Shown: one piece after another, positions 6,104 through 19,231 of the stretch | Layout of the letters: every line of letters starts with the position of its first letter | Numbering within the stretch: position 1 is the stretch's first letter | Source of the DNA: Linnemannia hyalina | Taxonomy: Eukaryota; Mortierellomycota; Mortierellomycetes; Mortierellales; Mortierellaceae | Direction: 5' to 3' | Assembly (NCBI GenBank): GCA_019671135.1 | Contig: JAHRHY010000022.1 | Span: 567,001-631,000, forward strand | DNA length: 64,000 bases | Translations under genes and position numbers: made by a program | Notes under the pieces: generated by a model | The model's database searches: none | What the model was told of the DNA's origin: nothing | The model's input: only the letters and a program-made list of their open reading frames with translations

Positions 6104-7170
6104 CGACCTCCATGCTGACATCAAACGGATCACGGACAAGTTCTTTGCGCTAGGACCAATTGTCGACTTTCTCGACGCGTTTGTGAAGGGCGAAGGATCG
6201 TTGCCTACTACATCAGGATCCATTCGTGGATTACCAAGAGCATGGCGTCGTTCGTTCGGGAAGCCGGCAGATACGTCCAAGTCTGCTGTTCATGGACCTC
6301 CCCGATCCATCCACACCTGACTCAACATTAAGGAATCTCGCAGCGGGCTCTATTCTCGAACTTGTGAGAGAGAATAACCGTTACCATATACCCGGTAAGA
6401 AAGTCAGCGCGAATGACACTGGCTATGTTTTCCTATTCATCGCTATTGTCCGTTGCACTTACATCTTTCTGTCTTTTTCTTTCTTCCATTCTCATGAGAA
6501 AGTGTTCGGCGTCTCTGGTGAGCCACTTGCTGCAGCATGCGCTTTATGGATATCACTCAACGGCTTCGAGGCATGATACTGACTATTATTTGCGATCATT
6601 TGTGCTCATACAAGCTGTGGCAAAACTCTAGCTGTTATCGAGCTCCTATCGAGCTCCTATCTCAGCACTGGGGCTTTTACTTCAACGCGTCGAGCGACGA
6701 TTGGGGATCAGGGGACATGATGACTCTTCGCAACACCGTTCACAGTTACCTAAGGGAAGTCCAGGCAACCTCCGCCGTGGTGGACCTTGAGATCAACAAC
6801 CTCTTTGCACGGAAGACGACGCTCTTGCTGTTTCTCTCTCGGCTCCTCATCTTCAAGTACTGCTTAAGCGTCCCCGGCAGCAGTAAGACATTTACCAGCG
6901 CACGATGGGCTTTCTTGCAGGTGTGCCCGCATGTTCTATTCAAGGATATTTTCAACGCACTGTTCCTCAAGCTCCTCCCACTTCGACATCACCGTGAGCT
7001 TGACCTATCCGATTTCGTCCGCAACGTGCACGAGGATGCGAAGGATCGCCTTGTCAAGCATGGGTGTCTACCAAAGGTCAAGGATGACACCAGACTCCTA
7101 GTCTTCAACGATGGGGCACAGTTCCTTGGCGACCAGTTCGATGGCTCTTTCCAGTCGATGTCTTCATCGA
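6104..7170 (+). pseudogene. crinkler-like P-loop NTPase protein, broken copy
   Basis: Coding-like segments in changing frames match the layout I associate with crinkler (CRN)-type host-modulating proteins of Mortierella-like fungi. First comes a segment starting near ADIKRITDKFF, then PDPSTPDSTLRNLAAGSILE, a probable intron beginning GTAAGA near 6393, and a GVSG...SCGKT Walker-A region split by inserted sequence. A conserved stretch around FNASSDDWGSGDM follows, then a long helical NTPase core with LLVFNDGAQFLGDQF. Lesions include a frame change near 6290, extra sequence at about 6516-6610, an 11-base duplication at 6637-6658 and loss of homology at about 7169, where the transposase sequence begins. 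No N-terminal ubiquitin-like CRN leader was found upstream. The family assignment is from memory of sequence features and should be treated as moderate. Confidence 0.6.
6637..6658 (+). repeat. 11-base tandem duplication in the Walker-A region
   Basis: ATCGAGCTCCT is present twice in direct succession. The first copy follows the codons for the SCGKT lysine/threonine loop. Eleven extra bases shift the reading frame. This is a clear inactivating step in the crinkler-like gene. Confidence 0.85.
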
Positions 7171-8110
7171 AAAGAACACTCAAACGGAAGAAGTATCCCG
7201 CACGACCGTCCATGATCCTCATCACTGGCGACCATTTGCTTTGTTTAAAAAATTGGCTGGTGTATCCGATGGCCTGCTCGACGACGATGCGACCTGTTCC
7301 CATCACCTGGTTTTCGAGGACATGCCGAGCAGCCTGGCCTTGACCTCGGTCGCGAGGCCTTGCGATGTGAGTATCGCTAGCGTATGCACTATCGCCGTAA
7401 AGCTTGAGGGCATGTCCGTCCGGGTGATGAGCATACTGAGCGAGGATGCCAGGAAGAGCAGAGTCCTGCAAAATGACTGAGTCATTGCATGTCCCTGCAG
7501 CCGGCTCGCTGACATGGGCTACGATGCCGTCTGGCAGCATGACCAAATTGTACCGAAGATAATGCTTCTGTCCTTTGCTGCCAAACATGCACTGCTCATG
7601 ATGTGTTGGCTTACACATCTCAATCGATGTTCCGTCAAGGAAGCCAAAAACGTCACCTCTTGCATGGGCGGCGATCCTAGCGGCTATCGCTTGCGTGAAC
7701 ATGGCTAGCCTCTCGGGTGTCAGTCGTTCTGGGTCCCAGTCGTACAGGCGGTTCCAAGATGTATAGAACCATTCAATCATCGCCTTGAGGATTATCGACA
7801 CCGCAGCTTGGTCTCGATGGAAAAATTCAACAACATCAGTAAGTCTCTTGGGGTACGCGAGTCGACAAAGCAGCATGCAAAGTCCCTCCATGCCGGTGAA
7901 CATGTCGTTATTAGTGGTCCACAGCAGATCTGGGATCATTAGATGCCGTTTGAGCAGCAAAAGTTGGTCTTTGTCGAACCGCATATGAGCGATACAAGCT
8001 TCGTCGGACCAGGTGTCGATGTCAAAGGTCGGCGCGTCTGTGCGGCGAGGCTGGCTCCTGAGATGATGACGTAGGAGCACGGCTGCCTCGTGCTCAGCGA
8101 TATCGTTGTA
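7169..8110 (-). mobile_element. PIF/Harbinger-type DDE transposase (DDE_Tnp_4 / HARBI1-like)
   Basis: On the minus strand an open frame reads from about 8105 to 6989. It has a helical N-terminal part (LLLLKRHLMIPDLLW..., LCMLLCRLAYPKRLTDVVEFF) and then the three catalytic acidic blocks: GFLDGTSIEMCKP (D), LYGDSAYASD (D) and GRIVVEQAIG (E). The family C-terminal signature SKWSPVMRIMDGRAGYFF follows. Harbinger transposases cut and paste DNA by DDE chemistry and usually need a Myb-like partner protein, which is not seen here. There is no ATG at the 5' limit of the frame: the first upstream ATG (about 8152-8154, reading MLMHQHH) hits TAA, so a short first exon or a broken start is likely. The last 60 or so codons (7169 down to 6989) are antisense crinkler sequence. 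No clear terminal inverted repeats or 3-base target duplications were found. Confidence 0.8.
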
Positions 8111-8358
8111 GATGCCTTACATCAAGCGGTGATGTTGGTGCATAAGCATGAGGGCACCCATAAGAAGGGAGATAAGCAACAGATACGCAAGGAAAGATAG
8201 TCAAAAGATATTGGACGGCCGAATCCTCACTTTGACACATGAGAGCGCCTAAGACTCTGCCGTAGCCATAGGTAGTTTAGAAATAAGAGGGACACTTGGG
8301 ACTAATGGAAAAAGCAAAGATGAAACAATGCGCCAGTGACATTATCCCCTAGTTTGTT

Positions 8359-8380
8359 TGTGGTGCAAATTTGCACCACA
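8359..8380. repeat. 22-base perfect palindrome
   Basis: The half-site TGTGGTGCAAA is followed directly by its exact reverse complement. It lies about 180 bases upstream of the piggyBac-like start codon. It may be a sub-terminal transposase-binding repeat of that element or a dimeric regulator site. Confidence 0.85.
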
Positions 8381-8558
8381 TTTTTTCGATTTATCCAGGT
8401 TTCCAATAAAACGGGTTAGAAGACTACATCGTGGGAGTGTCCTTGTCGTCTTCGTCACATTACATTCATCACTCTCGAATTCAGCTCTTTTTTTCTCATC
8501 ATCATCCCGCAACCCATTACCTTTTTTTTCTCACACATCGACTTCACCCTACTCACTC

Positions 8559-9840
8559 ATGGACTCCAGTCTCGAGTTCCTCGGTTCCTTTGACGTTTCT
8601 GACTCTCAAGGCACCATAGTAGCATCTGCGGAGGAGGTTGACGAGGCACAGGAGGAGGAGTTGTTGTTTTCGGTCCGTTGTCGTACTCGACCAACGCCTG
8701 GTACAGATAGCTCTGGGGACGAGGAGGAGGAGGAGAAGAAGGCAGGAGATGAAGGGGTGATAGGTGCCCCAACTCCACCGACAAAGAAGAAGGCTGCCAA
8801 GAAGGCTGCTAAGAAGCCCGTTCGTGAGACTAGAGAACTCCCGCCTGTACTAGATTTCGACAATATCTTTCGCCACTACAAGGATGGACACCCAGCACAA
8901 TCCAACCTTCCCCGTGCACTTCGACTCGACAGTGAACTATCACCATTGACAATTTTCACACTCTTCTTCTCCGACCCAGTATTGACGGATTTGGCAGACA
9001 ACACTAACGCATATGCAGCATCAAAAGGAGCCGGCACAGGAGAGGGATCGCGCCAATGGGTAAAGACCACACCTGACGAACTGCGCACATTCCTCGGCAT
9101 CATTGTCTACATGGGCGTGTTCAGGCAGAACTCTGTCTCTGAGTATTGGTCAACCTTCCCTGAATGTCCTCAACACAACATCACTACCTTCATGTCCCTC
9201 GTCCGCTTCGAACAACTGAAGCGTTTTTTTCATGTCTCCAACCCCAACGAGCCTGAGCAACATTGGTTCTCAAAAGTAGAGCCTGTGATAGATAGGTGCT
9301 TCGCTTCCTTTTCTTTTATTTAACGAAGAGAGTTACCACTCTTGCCCTCTGCTAGGCTATAAAAGCTAACTGCGACAATCGCCAGACCCACTTCAGGTTC
9401 TTACCGTGTTCTGGATGGACAATAGACCTGTCTCCATACTCTTCACCGTCCATGCCCTCAGCCTCGGCGACAACGACTGATCCGTTGTCCAAGATCGCAG
9501 ACGCCCTCGAGAGACAAGCGCCAGCGCAAAGTCAGTGCGGGCTGCTCATAAAGGACGTTCCATGGCGTTACTTCCCATCCCAAAATCATCGATGACAATA
9601 ACCACCACATGAACGGAGTCGACATTGCCGACGAGTTATGCAGCTACTATTCGACTCAGCTCAGGACTTATCGCGCATGGGCTCCGATCTTCTTCTGATT
9701 ACTGGATACAACAATCATCAATGCGTACCTTATCAACAAACTCTTCGGCTCTTCCATGCATCAAAGGGAGTTCCGATAGTTCCTGGCTAAGGATCTGATA
9801 GTGTCCGCCAAATGTCGCGACACCCCTACCTAAGTATCCC
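8559..9840 (+). pseudogene. piggyBac-like transposase, internally deleted
   Basis: From ATG 8559 a 255-codon frame opens with an acidic/Lys-rich leader (DEEEEEKKAGDEG, KKKAAKKAAKK). It continues into the piggyBac (DDE_Tnp_1_7) N-terminal region, including DELRTFLGIIVYMGVFRQNSVSEYW and RFEQLKRFFHVSNP. It stops at 9321-9323. From about 9375 the sequence resumes with the C-terminal part of the family: VFWMDNRPVSILFTVHAL, then NNHHMNGVDIADELCSYYSTQL, then INAYLINKLFG. Two in-frame TGA codons lie in that part. The middle region, which carries most of the catalytic aspartates, is missing, so this is a dead, deletion-derived copy. A 10-base inverted match (8380-8389 with 9849-9858) may mark its ends. 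Confidence 0.8.
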
Positions 9841-9860
9841 CTTATGTCTCGAAAAAATTC

Positions 9861-10437
9861 AAGGGACCAAACGATGAATTACTGAACTACTCATGACTGG
9901 CTGCATCCTGTGCAGATAAAATAAACGAGAAGGCATAACACAAGCATATCCTCAACCCACCCAGCGAATCTGCTCTCCCTGCAAGGTCTTCTTTGCACCA
10001 AGAATGATTTAGGAGTATCATACGCGCCCTGAATTTTAGAAAGGGTCCTGTGCCCGCGCCGATAGCGTTGCATCTCAGTGTCTGTCCACTGAGGCTGAAA
10101 TGCATGGGATTGGTGCGAAAGAACCATCCTACCCCTTAATTCGCTCACCCCTAGCTCATAGCTCTGACGGTCACGGTGACTGAGTGAGCGCCTGAGGCTG
10201 AGTGAATGAAGACCACCAGCTTCTTTTTCACCGTTCTGCATCGCCTCGTGTCCCTTTCTTTTAAACTGCCCCCTTCTCCCCCTTCTCCTAAACTGCCCCC
10301 CTTCTCAATTGAGCTTCAACAGACCTATGTAAGGCCGATGTTGAAAGTGATTGCGACCCGTGCTATTGAGAGAATCTATGAAATCAGACTCGCGCTAACC
10401 ATCAACCTTCAATTGTGAATTACTTAGAATTACAGCA
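9861..10437. other. intergenic stretch, nothing recognised
   Basis: Only short open frames occur, the longest being about 116 codons on the minus strand, which I do not recognise. The stretch separates the piggyBac relic from the XPG-Fanzor locus. If that locus is itself mobile, its left end should lie here, but I saw no obvious inverted repeat matching the 15.07-15.3 kb region. Confidence 0.5.
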
Positions 10438-12004
10438 ATGGGCATCACAAATCTCACCGGGTGGATCAAGGCGACAGACGGAGTGGAGGAAGATCTAACC
10501 AAGAAGAGATGTGAAGTAGATTTTGCGTCGATGTTTTTTGCGTTGGTGAACTCGCTGAGTTTCCATAAAACAGTGCAGTTCGCTGCAAAGTCCGCCCGAT
10601 GTCAATTATCTACTCACACAACAACATCGACACAGCAGGCTTCATCCGGCCCAGAGCGAGCAGCCGACGTCGATGGCGCGGGCATGTCTACTCACACAAC
10701 AACATCTACACGGCAGGCTTCATCCAGCCCAAAACGAGCAGCCGACGTCGACGATGTGGACACCGCCGACACTGCTTCCTCTAACAAACGCCTCCGACCC
10801 CTCCAAATCAGCTCCGGGTCGTCGACTCTCGTTGAAGACATGCAGCGATTGCTGGCAACACAGCCATCCCAGATTCGGTTCGACGAGAGCGGCGCTCTGA
10901 CCACAATCTGCGCCCAGGAAAAGGTCATTGTAAGTACCATAAATCATACCATCTGGAGAAAAGCTAAATGGATTGTACTGATCTGGAAAAAAGTTAAATG
11001 ATTCATGCTATCTGGAGAAAAGCTAAATTGCTGTGACCAAAATAATAATTCGCTGTTTCCAATAGGATTTTCGATCTGTCGGAGCCGCAATTGAGAAGAT
11101 TCTCTCCTCACGATTGTCTAAGGACATCACAATGCTCCATATGGATGGTCTACGATCAATGGAGAAGGAATGGGCGCACGGCAAACGAGATCAGGCGCTG
11201 TCCAAGCAGTTGGAAACACTTGAACGAGATTACACGGAGGGCAAGCTGCACAACAAAAGACAGCTATACAAACGCCTGAAGGCGTCGTACCGAGCACCAC
11301 CGGAGGCATTGCGCGCCGTTTCGGAAGTACTGCGTCAGAGTGGATGGACGATTTGCCAATGTCTCAACCAAAGCGACACGTGCATTGCGCGGACAGTCAA
11401 CAACGCTGCCGTACCCGGAGATATCCGAGTTATCACCAAGGACTCCGATCTCATGGCATTCGAGTCAATCATGTCCGTCACCATGCCAGTCAAGAACACT
11501 TGGACTACTTTCCACAAAGATGAGCTTCTGAACGAGCATGGCCTTCCGACCCCTGTACATCTAACGCTTGCCGCTCTGGTATCGAACAACGACTACACCA
11601 ACGGAGTTTTTTCCTATGGCTTGACATCCAATGTCGATACGATCCGTCAGTTCAAGATGACAGGTCTTGATGGAACGGTTGGCCAAGATCGAGTGGAGGT
11701 GGTTCGGATCTATGTTAGGCGCTACCTTGACATAATACACCAAAAGGCCCGTACAATCAAGGACTCAGCCACCCAAAGCGCACGTCGTCGACTGCGATGC
11801 AATCCTAACCCAACGGTGAAGGCACACGACAAGGATCTGAGGAGGATCGAAACGGCCGATCGACAGCTGCGTGTAGATGTGACAGAATTCGGCCATGCTC
11901 TCAAGACATTCGTGCTTTGCGAGGAAACCACTCTGGACAACAACAGGATCAGCCCGGCGGCCGATACACACACACGACTGATGGCCATAATTAAGGAAAC
12001 ATAA
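10438..12004 (+). CDS. XPG/FEN1-like (PIN-fold) nuclease module of a XPG-Fanzor locus
   Basis: Exons are 10438-10929 and 11066-12315, joined by a GTAAGT...AATAG intron. The in-frame TAA at 12002-12004 gives 476 residues. The start MGITNLTGWIKATDG followed by KRCEVDFAS resembles the XPG N-domain start (MGxxGL... then a metal-binding Asp). The later block GDIRVITKDSDLMAF matches the XPG I-region (TxDxDxLxF), and LAALVSNNDYTNGVFSYGL matches the GxDYxxGxxGxG helix-hairpin-helix entry. The EAEAQ glutamates of true FEN1 are not obvious: the aligned stretch reads NQSDTCIA. Catalysis may be altered. FEN1/XPG enzymes cut flap and bubble DNA. Between the two halves lies a low-complexity linker with a 26-residue tandem duplication. 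Coding sense continues in the same frame past the TAA into the Fanzor module, so this may be the front half of one protein. Confidence 0.65.
10611..10766 (+). repeat. in-frame 78-base tandem duplication
   Basis: Two copies start at 10611 and 10689, each encoding 26 residues beginning STHTTTST and containing RAADVD. They differ at several positions but keep the frame. They lie in the disordered linker of the XPG-like module, after its first conserved block. Confidence 0.8.
10951..11038 (+). repeat. three imperfect ~30-base repeats inside an intron
   Basis: Copies begin at 10951, 10981 and 11010, each starting ATCTGGA and followed by A-rich sequence and GCTAAAT or GTTAAAT. They fill most of the first intron of the XPG-Fanzor locus. 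The last copy contributes the GCTAAAT that could serve as a branch-site region. Confidence 0.7.
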
Positions 12005-15000
12005 TTCAACAAAGCCTACAATGATTGGCGTCGCTTTTCCGCGAGTCGGACGGGATCGTTGCCGCCTGGGCTGCTAGTAGATCCAGCTTCTCAGGGGGCG
12101 GCGACAGACGCAGAGGCAACGCCACCACCACTCCCAACGGCACCCAAGGCAGGATCAGCACCATATCCGCAAGCTACATCAGCGGGATCACCTTCCATCA
12201 GGCAGACGCATGGCCCAGCCGAACATCCACCATCGCACAAGCAAAAGATTAAAAAACAACGCCGACATGGTTCACGTGCCCTCCAGCGGCGACGACAGAA
12301 GTGGCGTCGTTCCAGGTATGTCTTTTTTCCTGGTATTTTTCTCCGCCTTGTCCAGCTATATACATATATTTCCACCTTAACACAACTCATTGCAAAATCG
12401 CATCTAGATTCCGCTCGCGCACAGACGTGCAAGATCGCTATGTGCCGGACACTGTTTTCCTAGAAAAGGCCAGCCCTGTTGATGTCGTGGAACTTTCAGG
12501 ATTGAAGCCGTCGATCCCCCGTCCTTCAAAGCCCAAGGAGCAATCCCCCCGTATCGACCAAGTGCCTGCCCCCGCTGCCAAGAAGAAAAAGAAAAAACTC
12601 CTTGGCGAACCTAAAGGAATAGCTGGACCCAAGGCCTTGAAGAGAGCGTTCCAGTCTGTTTTCGCAACGGTCACGCTCACGACTGGATCCCTGCAAGGCT
12701 GCCTAGGAAGATCAACCAATCTGTCGAAAGCAGAGGTTGCGCAGCTAACCCAACACGTGAGTTCGGCAGTCTCTACCGTCAATAGCGCCAAACACATTGT
12801 GTACAAGCTTATCGAGATGCGCATTCTACAGCCGCTGATCGAGACTGGACTGAACCAGGCAGAGGATGGACCGGACGAGAGCTTCCTAGAGAAGATCCTG
12901 GATTCCGATTGGGCGGAAAGGTTTGTCCAAAACCTACTGTCCTTCGTCTTGAGGAATTCCATTGTCCCCCAAGGACGTCCACCCGCGTCGGACAAGAGCA
13001 AGGATGCTGTCGCTGAAGCAATCTCGACGTTTAACGAGTTCAAGAAGACGCTGTGCCCAGGGTTCAAAGCCCTCAACTCAACGGATCTGGCTTTGAGTAA
13101 TATCATCGCGGAACTTGCACCCAAGATCTGCCTAGATCAGAAACTGCATTACAGGAGAATACCGGAGACTCTTAGAACAAAGGTACCATCTATCCATATC
13201 CGTTCAGTTTGTCAAATATTTTCAATGGGGTGTAAAACATATTTTAACACTCCTTTTGTTTATGCAATGCCAGCTCTCCAAGCTGTCCATTGATTGCGAT
13301 GGTCTTCCTGAAATAGATCAAGATGACACCGACGCTGGTGGTGATGCCGGGGCTGCTGACGTTAACGAGGGTGTGGACGACGACGACGCCCTCAAGCGAT
13401 CCAAGAAGATCATTTTCAAGCCGGGTCATATTCAACTCTGCTGGCGATATTTCCTCCTCTTACCATCATCCAAGCGGCCCCGGTTCTGCACCCAGGCCAA
13501 AATGAGCGATTCCTTCATCGACATCAACGAGGAAGCGTTGGTTGCGCTTCTCTGGGGAGAGAAGGCAGTTCAGTTGGACAACGTATGGGAGGACACCCGC
13601 TACACTCACAACTGGGCAGCGGCAAAACAGCGTTCTTCGTACGGAGAGGTGATCAAAGAACTATTCATCGGTGACCGAGATGTCATCAAGGAAGCCAGGA
13701 ATAAGCAGCAGACGACATACGGGAAGAGGACAACAACCATGGCTGAGCGTGAGGAGGCCCATCCACACATCTACGGACAGTTAGAGCTCGCACGGTATTT
13801 GACGAATAAGGTCAATTTTTTCCGAGAGCGGCACAACGCCTCCCTCACGGCCCCGACACCACCGTTGCCATCATCAACGCCATCGTCATCGACGACCTCC
13901 ACCCCACCGCCTCTTCCCACCCCACGTCAGCAGCCGCGTTCTTACCGCTACGCCCTCAACAACTATATCAGGACGGATGGCCACCAGCTGCAGATTCTCG
14001 CGTATGACCTTACAAAACCCCGCCAATCCCCAAATTACAGTGAGTTTCTTTCTAGGATCGAGAAGCTTTATCCAACGCGGCAGCATCTTATCGACGCGTT
14101 TGGCGACGACCTGGATTCAGTCATTGTCGTCGGTATTGATCCCGGAGAGGTAGTGAGTGGTGCATTTTGTTTGACACTTCCCGGTGGAAAAGTCATCAAT
14201 CTGCTGATCAAGAGGGCCTCCCTATACCAGCCTACTCTGGCCTTCCGAGATTGGGAACAGCATTGGAAAAGGCGACACCCAACAGCTGGTCCAGGCGATG
14301 TTGTCGACTCATCCCTTTGGACACGGATTACCGACCTGGACAAGCTCACCACTCTCCCGTCTGTCCACGACCTAGAGAATTCTCTCCCCTCAACGAACTA
14401 CGACACCTCGTTGGATGCTTTGACGGCAGCTCACAAGAAGTACTACGAGCAGGAACCGCTGATCCACGGGATTTACGCGTCAAGAGAATGGAAGGTAGCG
14501 GCTCACGAGCACAGAATGGCGAAAATGTCGGAGTTGGATCTGGCCGTCGCTGGCGTTTTGCGGATGGTGGATGAGGCATGTGAGGGCGTACCCGTCCACC
14601 AAAGAAAAGTTTTTTTTGCCCTGGGGAATGGAACCTTCCGGTCTGGCTTTAATCTCTCTTCGGTGCACACCACGTTTCTCAGACGTCTTTTACAGCAGGT
14701 ACGAAAGGCAAAAAAATATTGTGAAAGGCATGGTTGTATCTTTTTGTCTTGATTGTGTGCACTCATGATGCCATGGCAAATCTATGGAACACAATTTTAT
14801 TATTCCTGCACCGATAGAGTGCTGCGCTCGGATACAAGGCTGCCCTGGTCGACGAGTATCTTACTTCCACCATGTGTCCAACATGTGTGGTTGAGAACCG
14901 AGCCACCCGCCTCGCCAAGCCGTCGATGAGGACATGCGCCTGTGTTGAGTGCACTCGGTGGATTCACCGAGATGGAGTGGGGGCGCACAACATCGCTTTG

Positions 15001-15069
15001 ATCGGAGAACAGTACCTCAAGTCTCTAGGACGGCCCGAGCCCCTTGCAAGACCCCCCAAACAAACCTAA
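12005..15069 (+). CDS. Fanzor-type (eukaryotic TnpB) RuvC nuclease module
   Basis: Coding continues in frame from 12005 through introns 12316-12407, 13183-13273 and 14699-14817, with all phases matching, to the TAA at 15067-15069. If the upstream TAA is read through or is a mutation, the protein has about 1,396 residues. Otherwise the start is internal; ATG 13502 is one option. The order is a Pro/Lys-rich linker with a nuclear-localisation-like KKKKKK, a helical region, then the RuvC parts. RuvC-I is VVGIDPG (Asp at 14138-14140), and the RuvC-II-like segment is FFALGNGTF (about 14612-14638). VDEYLTS follows, with a Glu at 14854-14856. A zinc finger with CPTC and CACVEC comes next. RuvC-III is HRDGVGAHNI (Asp at 14971-14973). 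Fanzors are TnpB homologues that cut DNA guided by an RNA usually made from the element's 3' end. The GNG form and the downstream Glu agree with the rearranged Fanzor active site. All expected catalytic residues seem present. Confidence 0.8.
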
Positions 15070-15072
15070 CCT

Positions 15073-15091
15073 CTATAGATAGAAACTATAG
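15073..15091 (+). other. small inverted repeat just after the Fanzor stop
   Basis: CTATAG at 15073-15078 and CTATAG at 15086-15091 can pair over a 7-base loop, extended slightly by flanking A/T pairs. Fanzor and TnpB guide RNAs typically overlap the 3' end of the gene, so this 3' region is where such an RNA would be sought. The hairpin itself is short and could be chance. Confidence 0.25.
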
Positions 15092-15334
15092 TTTACATTA
15101 TCCCCTTCTACGGATTAAGGGATAGAGACAGATTGAACATCATTCCCGATGGTAAGCCAACGGATATTGTGGATCGCCACTTTATTAGATAGTCGGTCCT
15201 GCTATCGCACAACAACGTAGGATGTGAGTGTACAGACAGTGAGGTGAACGTTGAAGAGGCGTAGAGGGGTAAAGTAAGATGAGGGAAAGAAGAATAGAGT
15301 CCAGGGTTGGGAGAGGAGTAGGGCCTGTTCAAAT

Positions 15335-16553
15335 TCATCGTAGAATCTCGTCGATCCTCTTCACGATAGCAGGTAAGACCTTGTCCTTGTTGAGAGTCCA
15401 GATCTCGCTGCTCAGCTTGGGCACCAGTTCTGTCAAATGTTTGTTGGCCTCTTTCGATACTGGGGCTCCCTCCTCCTCCGCCATGACATTTAATATATGT
15501 CCAACAATGTCGAGGATCTTGCATGGCTTGTCTTTACGCTGCTTGAGAGCCTCCTCCATGCAACTCTGCACCTCAGCTTTGTTAATCTTGTGTTGGTCGT
15601 TGTATAGTTGGTGGAAAACGAATGCTCCCACTTTGAGACCTGACCATGCATTGTCCGTCTTGAACTCGTAGAGCGTCTTTAACATAACCGGTAAAGTCCT
15701 GAAGTCATTCAGTAATGGATCGACAGCGGCAAAGTCCCCAAAGGTCGACTTGACATCAAATTTAGACCGAACCTGTCGCTCCATGGTGTTGAAAAGGGGT
15801 GTTCTCTTGTCCTTTCGGATCCACAGACGGGAGTCGAGGTGCGGATAAAAGAACTTGTTATTTGGGCCTACAATGACTCTGCCGTTCGTCAAGATAACTG
15901 CCAGTGTTACCAGCGCGTTCCACTTCACGGTACCAATCATGACCTTATGTGCCTCGTCATGCCACTCGTTGACAACGATGAAAGACCTCTTGCCTATTGG
16001 GTGGGCGACTTCCAGCCTGTGAGGATCCTCGCTAGGAGTTCGACCGAAAACTTCTACCTTGTCAACAAGTAGCACCATGTCGCCCGATTGGAGAAGAAGC
16101 CCTTCGAGGCTCGTAGCGAGAAATTCTCCGTTGCTAGCAAATCCCATGTGCCACATCTCGTCGCCGTTTTCAAGTGGCCTGTAATCGTCGATACAGACCA
16201 GGTCCCCGTAACTGTGACGCTTGAGTGCCGTCTCAAGTGCAATGTCGACTATGGCTTGAGACTTGCGCCGCTTAATGGGCCGTACAAACGTCATGGATCC
16301 GTCCTGCGCCCGTTTGGTGACTCCAGGGAAATGAAGACCGAAAGACTTTCTCCGTTCTTGTATCTCAGCTCGACTGGCTCCAACAGCGTCTTCAAGTACT
16401 GGACGCCTGCCATGTTTCCGACGACGCAGACCGGCTCTTCATCAAACTCTCGCATGACATCGATATCGCCATCAGTGTCCTGCTTCCACACTTCGCAACT
16501 CTCACTATGCATCAATAGGTCTTTGGTTGTCTGGCTGTCACAGTATCATAGTC
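15335..16553 (-). CDS. unrecognised protein, convergent with the Fanzor gene, frameshifted
   Basis: One 319-codon frame (ATG at 16294 to TAG at 15335-15337) has strongly coding-like composition. It includes LVCIDDYRPLENGDEMWHMG, then SGDMVLLVDKVEVFGR, then KRSFIVVNEWHDEAHKVMIG. Upstream, 16553-16291 in another frame reads LLMHSESCEVWKQDTDGDIDV and DEEPVCVVGNMAGVQYLKT and ends in TGA at 16291-16293. The two frames overlap by a few bases near 16,291 and look like halves of one protein split by a one-base deletion. I recognise no domain. The mixed beta/alpha pattern suggests a folded globular protein. Its 3' end is 265 bases from the Fanzor stop and convergent, so it could be a neighbour or cargo of the same element. 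It could equally be unrelated. Confidence 0.45.
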
Positions 16554-17352: not shown

Positions 17353-19231
17353 TTAGTTCTCAACAACACCCTTTTTCTTCAAGGCCTCCAATTCTCGCTT
17401 GGCGTCCTTATTTCCTCTGTCGGCTGCCTTAGAGAACCACTTCGCGGCCTTTATATAATTCCGACGAACACCTTGGCCATTCCTGTAGAGCAGGCCGACG
17501 TTGTATTGAGCAACGTCGTACTCTTGCTTGGCGGCCTTGAGGAACCAATCCATCGCCTGTGCGTAGTCTTGGCGAACACCTCGGCCGCTGTCGTAGAGGA
17601 GGCCGATGCTGTTCTGAGCAAAAGTATCACCTTGATTGGCGGCCTTGAGGAACCAATACATCGCCTGTGCGTTGTCTTGACGAACACCTTCGCCGTTTTC
17701 GTAGAGAAGGCCGATGTTGTATTGAGCGACAGCATATCCTTGTGTGGCAGCCTTGAGGTACCATTCCATCGCCTGTGCGTAGTCTTGGCGAACACCTTCA
17801 CCGTTTTCGTAGAGAAGGCCGATGTTGACTTGAGCGACAGAATATCTTTGTGCGGCGGCCTTGAGGTACCATTCCATCGCCTGTGCGTAGTCTTGAGGAA
17901 CACCTTCACCGTTGTCGTAGAGACAACCTATGCGGCATTGCGAGATAGCATATCCTTGTGCGGCGGCCTTGATGTACCACTCCATCGCCTGTGCGTAGTC
18001 CTGAAGAACACCGCGGCCATGTTGGTAGAGAAACCCGATGCTGTATTGAGCGACAGCATATCCTTGTGCGGCGGCCTTGATGTACCAGCTCATGGCTGCT
18101 GAGTAGTTCCGCGGGACACCGAATCCTTTATGGTAGAGGGCGCCTACTCTCTGCTGACCAGCTGCGTCTCCTTGCTTGACGGCCATGAAGTACCAATCCC
18201 AGGCGGCCTGATAGTCTTGCGCAACCCTCTTGCCGTCCCTGTACATGTCGCCAAGCGCGACCTGGGCGTCCTTGTCCCCTTTACTTGCACTAATGATCGT
18301 CCGTGCCAATCGCAACGCCACGGACACATTAGCTGTTGCGCTCCGCGGCCCACGCTGCTGAGAGTTGTTGTCGTTGTCAGGACGAGGAGTGGTTGGAGTA
18401 TCCTTGACAGCTGGATTTTGATCGTCCAGCACTGCTTGCGGATCTCGAGCTGACGGGAACGTAAGGGGTCTGTCGATGCGAGTGTAACTTTCCTTCGTCG
18501 CCTCTACAAGTCCGTAGACTTCTACAAGACCGCAGACCTCTACAAGACCGTAGACCTCTACAAGACCGTAGACTGGGTTCTGTCTGACGGCGGATGTTGT
18601 AGTTGAAGGGGAACTGGATGAGGACGTTGTGTTGGGTGTGGAGGTAGCAGTCGTAGTAATGGGTATCGACGTAATACTGGGTGCTGAGATGGTATCCTGG
18701 GATGTATCCTCGATCTTTATGGCGCTGCCGTCCTGCGGCGGCACTGGTTGAGGATCCGGCTGTTGGACCTGGAGAGAAACGGCCCCCGCATTGTCGGTCA
18801 CTGGAGTATCTACGACCACATCCAAGACAATATTCGGCACGGCGGTGATCCTGCGAGGCTCAAGGCTAGGGGCGATTTCATTGTCCAATAGAGAAAAAAT
18901 TAGTATGGTTGTCTTCTTCCTTCACTACCATCGCCCACGACATGCATTCTAGCCAGCAGTAGCCCACACAACCAGTCTATACATACATACTATGGTCTAT
19001 TCCTCTCTGGAACGAAACCACTCTCGTCTTGTGGCGGACATGAACTGCGTAATCGAATGCCTGAACGATATCGTCCCAGAAAATGAACCCCTTTTGGGTG
19101 TCAGGGTCGAGATGTGTGTCAACGTGATAGATCTCATCAGGACCGGCAGGAGGGATGGAGTTGGGTGGAACGCCCTTGTTGACGGAGCGGAGTGCCTGGA
19201 TCTGTTCCTGAGGACTGTTTCCATGTAGCAT
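17353..19231 (-). CDS. Sel1-repeat protein B
   Basis: There are two exons, 19231-18987 and 18865-17353, giving 585 residues. The phase-2 intron has a GTATGT donor, an ACTAAT branch site and a CCTAG acceptor, in the same place as in Sel1 A. Exon 1 encodes the shared 81-residue N-terminal domain (MLHGNSPQEQIQ..., with FWDDIVQAFDYAV). Then come a disordered linker, eight 36-residue Sel1 repeats and a lysine-rich tail (RELEALKKKG). The repeats should fold as a solvent-exposed alpha solenoid that binds other proteins, but no partner can be inferred. The linker contains a local expansion of GLVEVY units absent from Sel1 A. The 3' flank (GATAAGTCTGCG, then GAATTCGATGAATC) is also shared with Sel1 A, so duplication included flanking DNA. 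This copy keeps the tryptophan codon that is a stop in A and appears intact. Confidence 0.88.
18502..18573 (-). repeat. 18-base coding tandem repeat (GLVEVY x4)
   Basis: Four 18-base units within Sel1 B encode GLVEVY-type hexapeptides; one unit reads CGLVEV. Sel1 A has a single YGLVEV at the corresponding place. The array is in frame and lies in the disordered linker. Confidence 0.85.

Follow-up and report, generated by a model that had tools for sequence, protein, structure and literature searches.

XPG-Fanzor: two nuclease modules in one predicted protein of Mortierellaceae transposons

Can a single transposon gene encode two nucleases of different kinds? The question is raised by a mobile element of Linnemannia hyalina on contig JAHRHY010000022.1 of assembly GCA_019671135.1 (forward strand, positions 567,001 to 631,000; this whole stretch of 64,000 nucleotides is referred to as the window). 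Fanzors cut DNA, guided by RNA from their element's end, and a sequence-only reading of the locus had proposed that here a Fanzor is spliced in frame to an XPG/FEN1-like nuclease. This interpretation is supported by open fused frames outside the window copy and by the folds of both modules in relatives; the computations also show conserved catalytic residues (with one exception in the window family), physical linkage of the modules, their divergence in parallel and an element that has spread. We regard the fused two-nuclease architecture as nearly certain. We also lean towards the view that XPG-Fanzor is a single transposon product, in which an N-terminal FEN1/EXO1-type 5'-nuclease precedes a C-terminal Fanzor RuvC nuclease that would take its guide RNA from the 3' end of the element and the flank beyond it.

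Fused frames, linkage and co-divergence

The splice model confirms the proposed gene structure of five exons (492+1250+775+1425+252 nt) with GT..AG introns and compatible phases, and the XPG and Fanzor motifs named in the sequence-only reading are found in the spliced translation. The claim that one open frame links the two modules fails for the window copy, which has an in-frame TAA at codon 477, and holds for two other copies of its family and for families B and C. The same 51.5-Mb genome has 11 further near-identical copies, which match the window from ~8340 to ~15125, so that 12 copies of the window family (family A) were compared. Codon 477 is GAA in seven of them and TAA in five. Copies L011 and L012 are open over 1398 codons with the final stop only, and L013 is open, but its frame runs beyond the terminal stop. 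TAA477 is the sole defect of the window copy, L015 and L016, and is accompanied by frameshifts in L014 and L019; one other stop is present in L017, and frameshifts in L009, L010 and L018. The fusion thus exists in open form, of which the window copy is no example; that copy could produce the XPG half at most. This TAA is the sole alignment column fixed in its five carriers and absent from the other seven copies, which suggests gene conversion or recombination between copies. A separate observation concerns exon 1, where a 65-bp duplication (91-92%) at 10609-10751 is present in all 12 copies.

Families B and C show the same order as the window family: XPG-N, XPG-I, basic linker, Fanzor body and zinc-finger/RuvC-III. 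Their open frames comprise 1352 codons in family B (L023) and 1445-1460 codons, by alternative splice choices, in family C (L027), and their XPG exons are 43% and 45% identical to that of the window family, respectively. The 29 proteins produced by three homologue searches (P0001-P0029) belong, by their given names, to nine genera (Linnemannia, Podila, Dissophora, Entomortierella, Modicella, Haplosporangium, Gryganskiella, Benniella and Mortierella), all Mortierellaceae in the taxonomy; as each search scored ~8000 candidates sharing most words, confinement to this family cannot be read from the result. Regular expressions, with the zinc-finger spacing slightly widened, matched an XPG SDSD-type motif together with a RuvC-I or zinc-finger motif in 23 of the 29 proteins, covering all nine genera. 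In one of the proteins counted, P0011, the RuvC-I matches fall in the XPG part, and the zinc-finger motif is in place. The sequence-only reading had suggested searching both domains with hidden Markov models for their co-occurrence without a stop, and such a case was found: P0011 (L. gamsii BGZ96_004069) is one protein that exceeds the Pfam cut-offs for both XPG_I (28.1 versus 24.9) and Cas12f1-like_TNB, hereafter TNB (52 versus 26.3).

It might still be argued that the modules are two adjacent genes of one transposon that are expressed separately and yield no fusion protein, as the stop between them in five of the 12 copies, including that in the window, would allow. However, the first in-frame ATG past codon 477 is found in exon 3, where the Fanzor part has already begun (as read by eye from the translation), and the frame, exon order and basic linker are conserved across families and genera. 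Rather than unrelated genes at separate locations, the homologues of the nine genera include single annotated proteins with the motifs of both modules. We find separate expression scarcely credible. The NCBI model of the window locus (P0002) was rejected. It begins in the transposase, omits the first XPG part and places an intron across the stop; P0001 shares this intron call. Because P0003-P0005 retain as protein the region that this intron removes, the model was treated as a mis-annotation. Both KI688_007005 (P0002) and KI688_003228 (P0001) are named piggyBac-derived, their models fusing the N-part of the transposase to the XPG-Fanzor gene minus the first XPG part.

Linkage of the modules was assessed within the genome by pairing each XPG locus with a TNB match above the Pfam cut-off on the same strand within 6.5 kb, for which the chance is ~0.006 per locus. 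With the window exon as query, 57 of 65 merged XPG loci had such a match 1.3-3.9 kb downstream, and chance adjacency is thereby ruled out. Adding a second, divergent query gave 62 paired loci among 82 merged XPG loci, at least one of which is a host FEN1-type gene; these took 62 of the 90 TNB matches. The other 28 matches above the cut-off had no XPG neighbour, and among the four of these loci that were read no intact XPG-less Fanzor of this kind was found, all four being read as fragments or frameshifted, with no XPG part.

The two parts also diverge in parallel. Across 24 proteins (276 pairs), XPG-part and Fanzor-part identities are correlated with r 0.92, a value reached in none of 2000 permutations and expected of two parts that are passed on as a unit. 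Between families A and B, codon agreement at conserved residues is 31-44% by exon region and 54% in the last 60 codons, the low agreement being read as near saturation. Since protein identity nevertheless persists (41-42% in XPG and 57-77% in Fanzor exons), both modules alike appear to be under purifying selection.

Folds and active sites of the modules

The Fanzor fold spans residues 460-1135 of the relative P0026, as judged by comparison with 8gkh, 9cez, 9cer and 9cf0, and exon 5 of the window matches Pfam TNB with E 8.9e-8. The RuvC-I motif is GIDPG or VDPG in families A, B and P0001-P0006. In family A the alternative glutamate lies six residues before the C4 finger and is followed by the final aspartate (EYLTSTMCPTC...CVECTRWIHRD). 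This combination of GIDPG, a glutamate at that distance from CxxC, and HRD agrees with the Fanzor hallmarks of DPG, an alternative glutamate before the zinc finger and D given in the available portion of PMC10711439. We also observed a larger sister clade of XPG-Fanzors (L029, L030, L031 and P0007-P0029), in which the alternative glutamate is kept and DLG, DAG or DGG replaces DPG where the regular expression matched.

For the XPG module, structure comparison of an Entomortierella relative revealed the XPG fold, the structural alignments of relatives to solved enzymes having 12-22% sequence identity. The Pfam XPG_I cut-off is reached by the relatives P0011, P0012 and P0024 and by five genome loci of the wider family. 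The acidic set was aligned with FEN1 by eye, using what we take to be the FEN1 numbering of its seven metal-binding acids. Most larger-clade rows covering the site contain the full set (xDVLG, YIDG, TEAD, SDSD and NDY). We infer a putative 5'-flap or 5'-exonuclease character of this module.

The element, its 3' end and its insertion sites

The features of the window are collected in Table 1. The terminal inverted repeat (TATCCCTTCG/CGAAGGGATA) is clearer in families B and C. Nine of the 11 further copies match in two blocks (8342-8788 at 95-96% and 8965-15125 at 99%), whereas L013 and L017 match the window element without interruption at 99%. The left end is common to all 12 copies, in unrelated flanks, and the right end to 11. 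The match of L016 (G000:C44:2225923-2235922) ends ~25 bases early, at ...TTTACATT, and lacks the last hairpin. Judged against the open transposase of family C (open frames kept; DDE_Tnp_1_7 E 5.6e-52), every one of the 12 family-A copies has a broken transposase; tblastn detected none in eight family-B loci of 10 kb each, beyond which longer copies may extend. Just left of the element lies a DDE_Tnp_4 transposase frame, presumably Harbinger-like (6992-8116, reverse strand, E 2.3e-12), and to its right a protein with eight Sel1 repeat stretches (17356-18921, reverse strand, E 9.8e-77).

Table 1. Features of the element in the window (window positions)
Feature	Position	Strand	Basis
Whole mobile element, ATCCC...GGGAT, short imperfect terminal inverted repeat, ~6.8 kb	8344..15123	+	copy comparison
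Broken piggyBac-type (DDE_Tnp_1_7) transposase	8559..9323	+	Pfam E 1.2e-23, profile 1-115 of 349 only
Exon 1: XPG N-region (MGITNL..., VDFASMFF), then low-complexity insert with tandem duplication	10438..10929	+	splice model
Exon 2: XPG I-region (HMDG, QSDT, TKDSDL, NNDY), helical C-part, basic linker	11066..12315	+	splice model, alignment
In-frame TAA (codon 477) between XPG and Fanzor modules	12002..12004	+	splice model, copy comparison
Exon 3: linker and start of Fanzor part	12408..13182	+	splice model, alignment
Exon 4: Fanzor body, RuvC-I GIDPG, GNGTF	13274..14698	+	splice model, motifs
Exon 5: alternative glutamate (DEYLTS), C4 zinc finger, HRD (RuvC-III)	14818..15069	+	Pfam, regular expression
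Putative omega-RNA 3' scaffold: hairpin 1 (15073-15091), hairpin 2 (15099-15124)	15070..15124	+	folding
Putative guide: host flank directly after element end, differs per copy, length assumed	15125..15144	+	guide role inferred from known Fanzors

In family A only 55 bases separate the stop codon from the element end. They fold into two hairpins, in the second of which TATCC pairs with GGGATA at the last bases of the element. The same layout was obtained for families or variants B, C, D, D2 and E (six folded in total), with mostly different stem sequences and one clear compensatory change, CTGCG/CGCAG in D versus CTCCG/CGGAG in D2; MAFFT alignments of these ends misaligned the first stem. Over the 22 bases that follow the stop, families A and B differ once, while their synonymous sites have diverged widely. 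No Rfam match was found at 14600-15400 of the window. The flank past the last base of the element varies between copies, as expected for a guide, and the omega RNA of SpuFz1 is described as two stems and a linker in the available text of PMC10432273. RNA guidance is likely in some members. The 3' ends of the larger clade (L043-L051) are different and longer, and a recurring CTTCGGTGACGT motif is present in eight of nine.

Fifteen insertion sites were joined and searched, and among the 40 matches scored, empty paralogues were recovered for two of them, L021 (six fetched) and L017 (four fetched). The empty sites hold 6-10 and 11-13 extra junction bases, respectively, the range arising from the paralogue and the placement of the last element bases. 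Neither of these two resolvable sites shows a target-site duplication, be it the TTAA of piggyBac or any other; the insertions replace 6-13 bp, which is unlike typical DDE transposons. A C stands at position -5 before the element in 10 of the 12 family-A copies, and the would-be guide is preceded by CATA in all four L017 empty sites and by AATA in five of six L021 empty sites. CATA is the target-adjacent motif of SpuFz1 according to the accessible part of PMC10432273. Candidate target motifs are thus CNTT(A) at the left junction and NATA at the empty sites. We treat both the C and the candidate target motifs as leads rather than established adjacent motifs.

These data bear on the possibility that both nucleases are passengers and that the piggyBac-type transposase alone mobilises the element. 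The transposase does adjoin the XPG-Fanzor gene. Yet it is broken throughout family A and undetected by tblastn in the family-B loci searched, while XPG and Fanzor remain conserved, and the piggyBac duplication is absent from both resolvable sites. A passenger role is therefore very doubtful.

Possible function and relation to known systems

FEN1 removes 5' flaps, and EXO1 resects 5' ends, favouring homologous repair. By analogy, we tentatively suggest a cut-and-resect RNA-guided homing enzyme, in which the guided cut of an element-free site would be followed by 5'-end processing by the tethered EXO1/FEN1-type module and copying in of the transposon. A guide RNA would be made from the 3' end of the element and flanking host DNA, and the ribonucleoprotein would recognise an element-free site, which may be on the sister, on the other allele or at the donor locus once the element has left. 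The RuvC nuclease would produce a staggered break there, whereupon the XPG module would remove 5' flaps or overhangs, or resect 5' ends, and might thereby steer repair to copying the element back (retention or homing). Such processing would account for small target deletions at insertions; the losses of 6-13 bp are compatible with it but do not prove it.

Another explanation accepts the fused protein and assigns the XPG module mainly to trimming guide RNA ends or transposase-excision flaps rather than an RNA-guided break. It draws on the established ability of the XPG superfamily to cut 5' flaps and nicked junctions, on the open piggyBac-type transposase that shares the family C element and on the lack of target duplication at the two resolvable insertions. 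However, the guide lies at the 3' end of the RNA, whereas XPG enzymes work on 5' ends, and conservation of the XPG module extends across families although the transposase is broken in every family-A copy. We consider this explanation unlikely.

Several observations weigh against the picture of a transposon-encoded, RNA-guided enzyme with a second active nuclease. The sequence-only reading had expected an XPG fold at 10438-12004; the fold is supported in relatives, whereas a Pfam search at E 1 gave no XPG match for the exon of the window copy itself. P0006 matches Pfam XPG at E 0.17 only, and a profile of five proteins near the window family found EXO1 alone in PDB, at E 0.54. The E of TEAD is replaced by Q in families A, B, C and P0003-P0006. 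Folding z-scores were -0.90 for the window and -3.71, -2.23, -2.31, -3.40 and -1.19 for the other five, weakly significant by shuffling, and a simple hairpin shuffle test was weak as well (Fisher p 0.087 and 0.031). Since the z-scores are modest and the hairpin test weak, the two-hairpin RNA structure at the 3' end is plausible rather than proven. The resection or repair role that we infer for the XPG module is drawn from analogy, and TAA477 being common to five of 12 copies indicates that elements unable to encode the whole protein have multiplied or undergone conversion.

The glutamine and the 12-22% identity to solved enzymes might also indicate that the XPG module has no catalytic activity and instead binds DNA junctions or acts as a scaffold, like inactive XPG-like proteins, of which Mkt1 is one. 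Nonetheless, the remaining acidic positions are retained in families A-C, and the full set is found in most larger-clade rows that cover the site, so that we hold an inactive module to be improbable.

The Fanzors described in the available text of PMC10432273 are RNA-guided nucleases that stand alone, and their biological role is not settled. A widely conserved natural fusion to a 5'-flap/exonuclease fold suggests what may follow the cut, and it makes the idea that Fanzors help transposons spread directly testable with active-site mutants. If the tentative homing scheme is true, XPG-Fanzor would be an RNA-guided nuclease with its own repair-pathway selector. The fusion also offers a natural template for genome editors in which the RNA-guided cut is coupled to processing of the ends, thereby biasing repair. 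Neither the pairing of Fanzor with XPG nor Fanzor in Mortierella was found in any paper of the literature searched, outside which most subscription papers and bioRxiv lie. Among Fanzor transposons, we rate XPG-Fanzor as a new domain architecture.

Compared with the Fanzor1 proteins SpuFz1, GtFz1 and PpFz1, the Fanzor fold is shared by P0026, and DPG, the alternative glutamate and the C4 finger by family A, whereas DPG gives way to D(L/A/G)G in the larger clade; the putative scaffold is likened to the two-stem RNA scaffold at the right end of the SpuFz1 transposon. The accessible text on these three proteins (Saito 2023, PMC10432273) mentions no XPG nuclease, while XPG-Fanzor has ~1350-1400 aa with an extra N-terminal nuclease. 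Unlike FEN1, EXO1 and XPG(Rad2), the 5'-nuclease module here is fused to a Fanzor and transposon-borne, and in the window family it has Q at one acidic position. With piggyBac-type transposons the element shares a DDE_Tnp_1_7 transposase, inside it and on the same strand, but not, at the two resolvable sites, the TTAA duplication, in place of which 6-13 bp are replaced. The nearest precedent found for a Fanzor and a partner nuclease in one transposon is the Mariner element PGv-1 (Bao & Jurka 2013, PMC3627910, available portion), which likewise carries a Fanzor and a second nuclease, GIY-YIG; there, however, the two are separate proteins, and GIY-YIG is unrelated to XPG.

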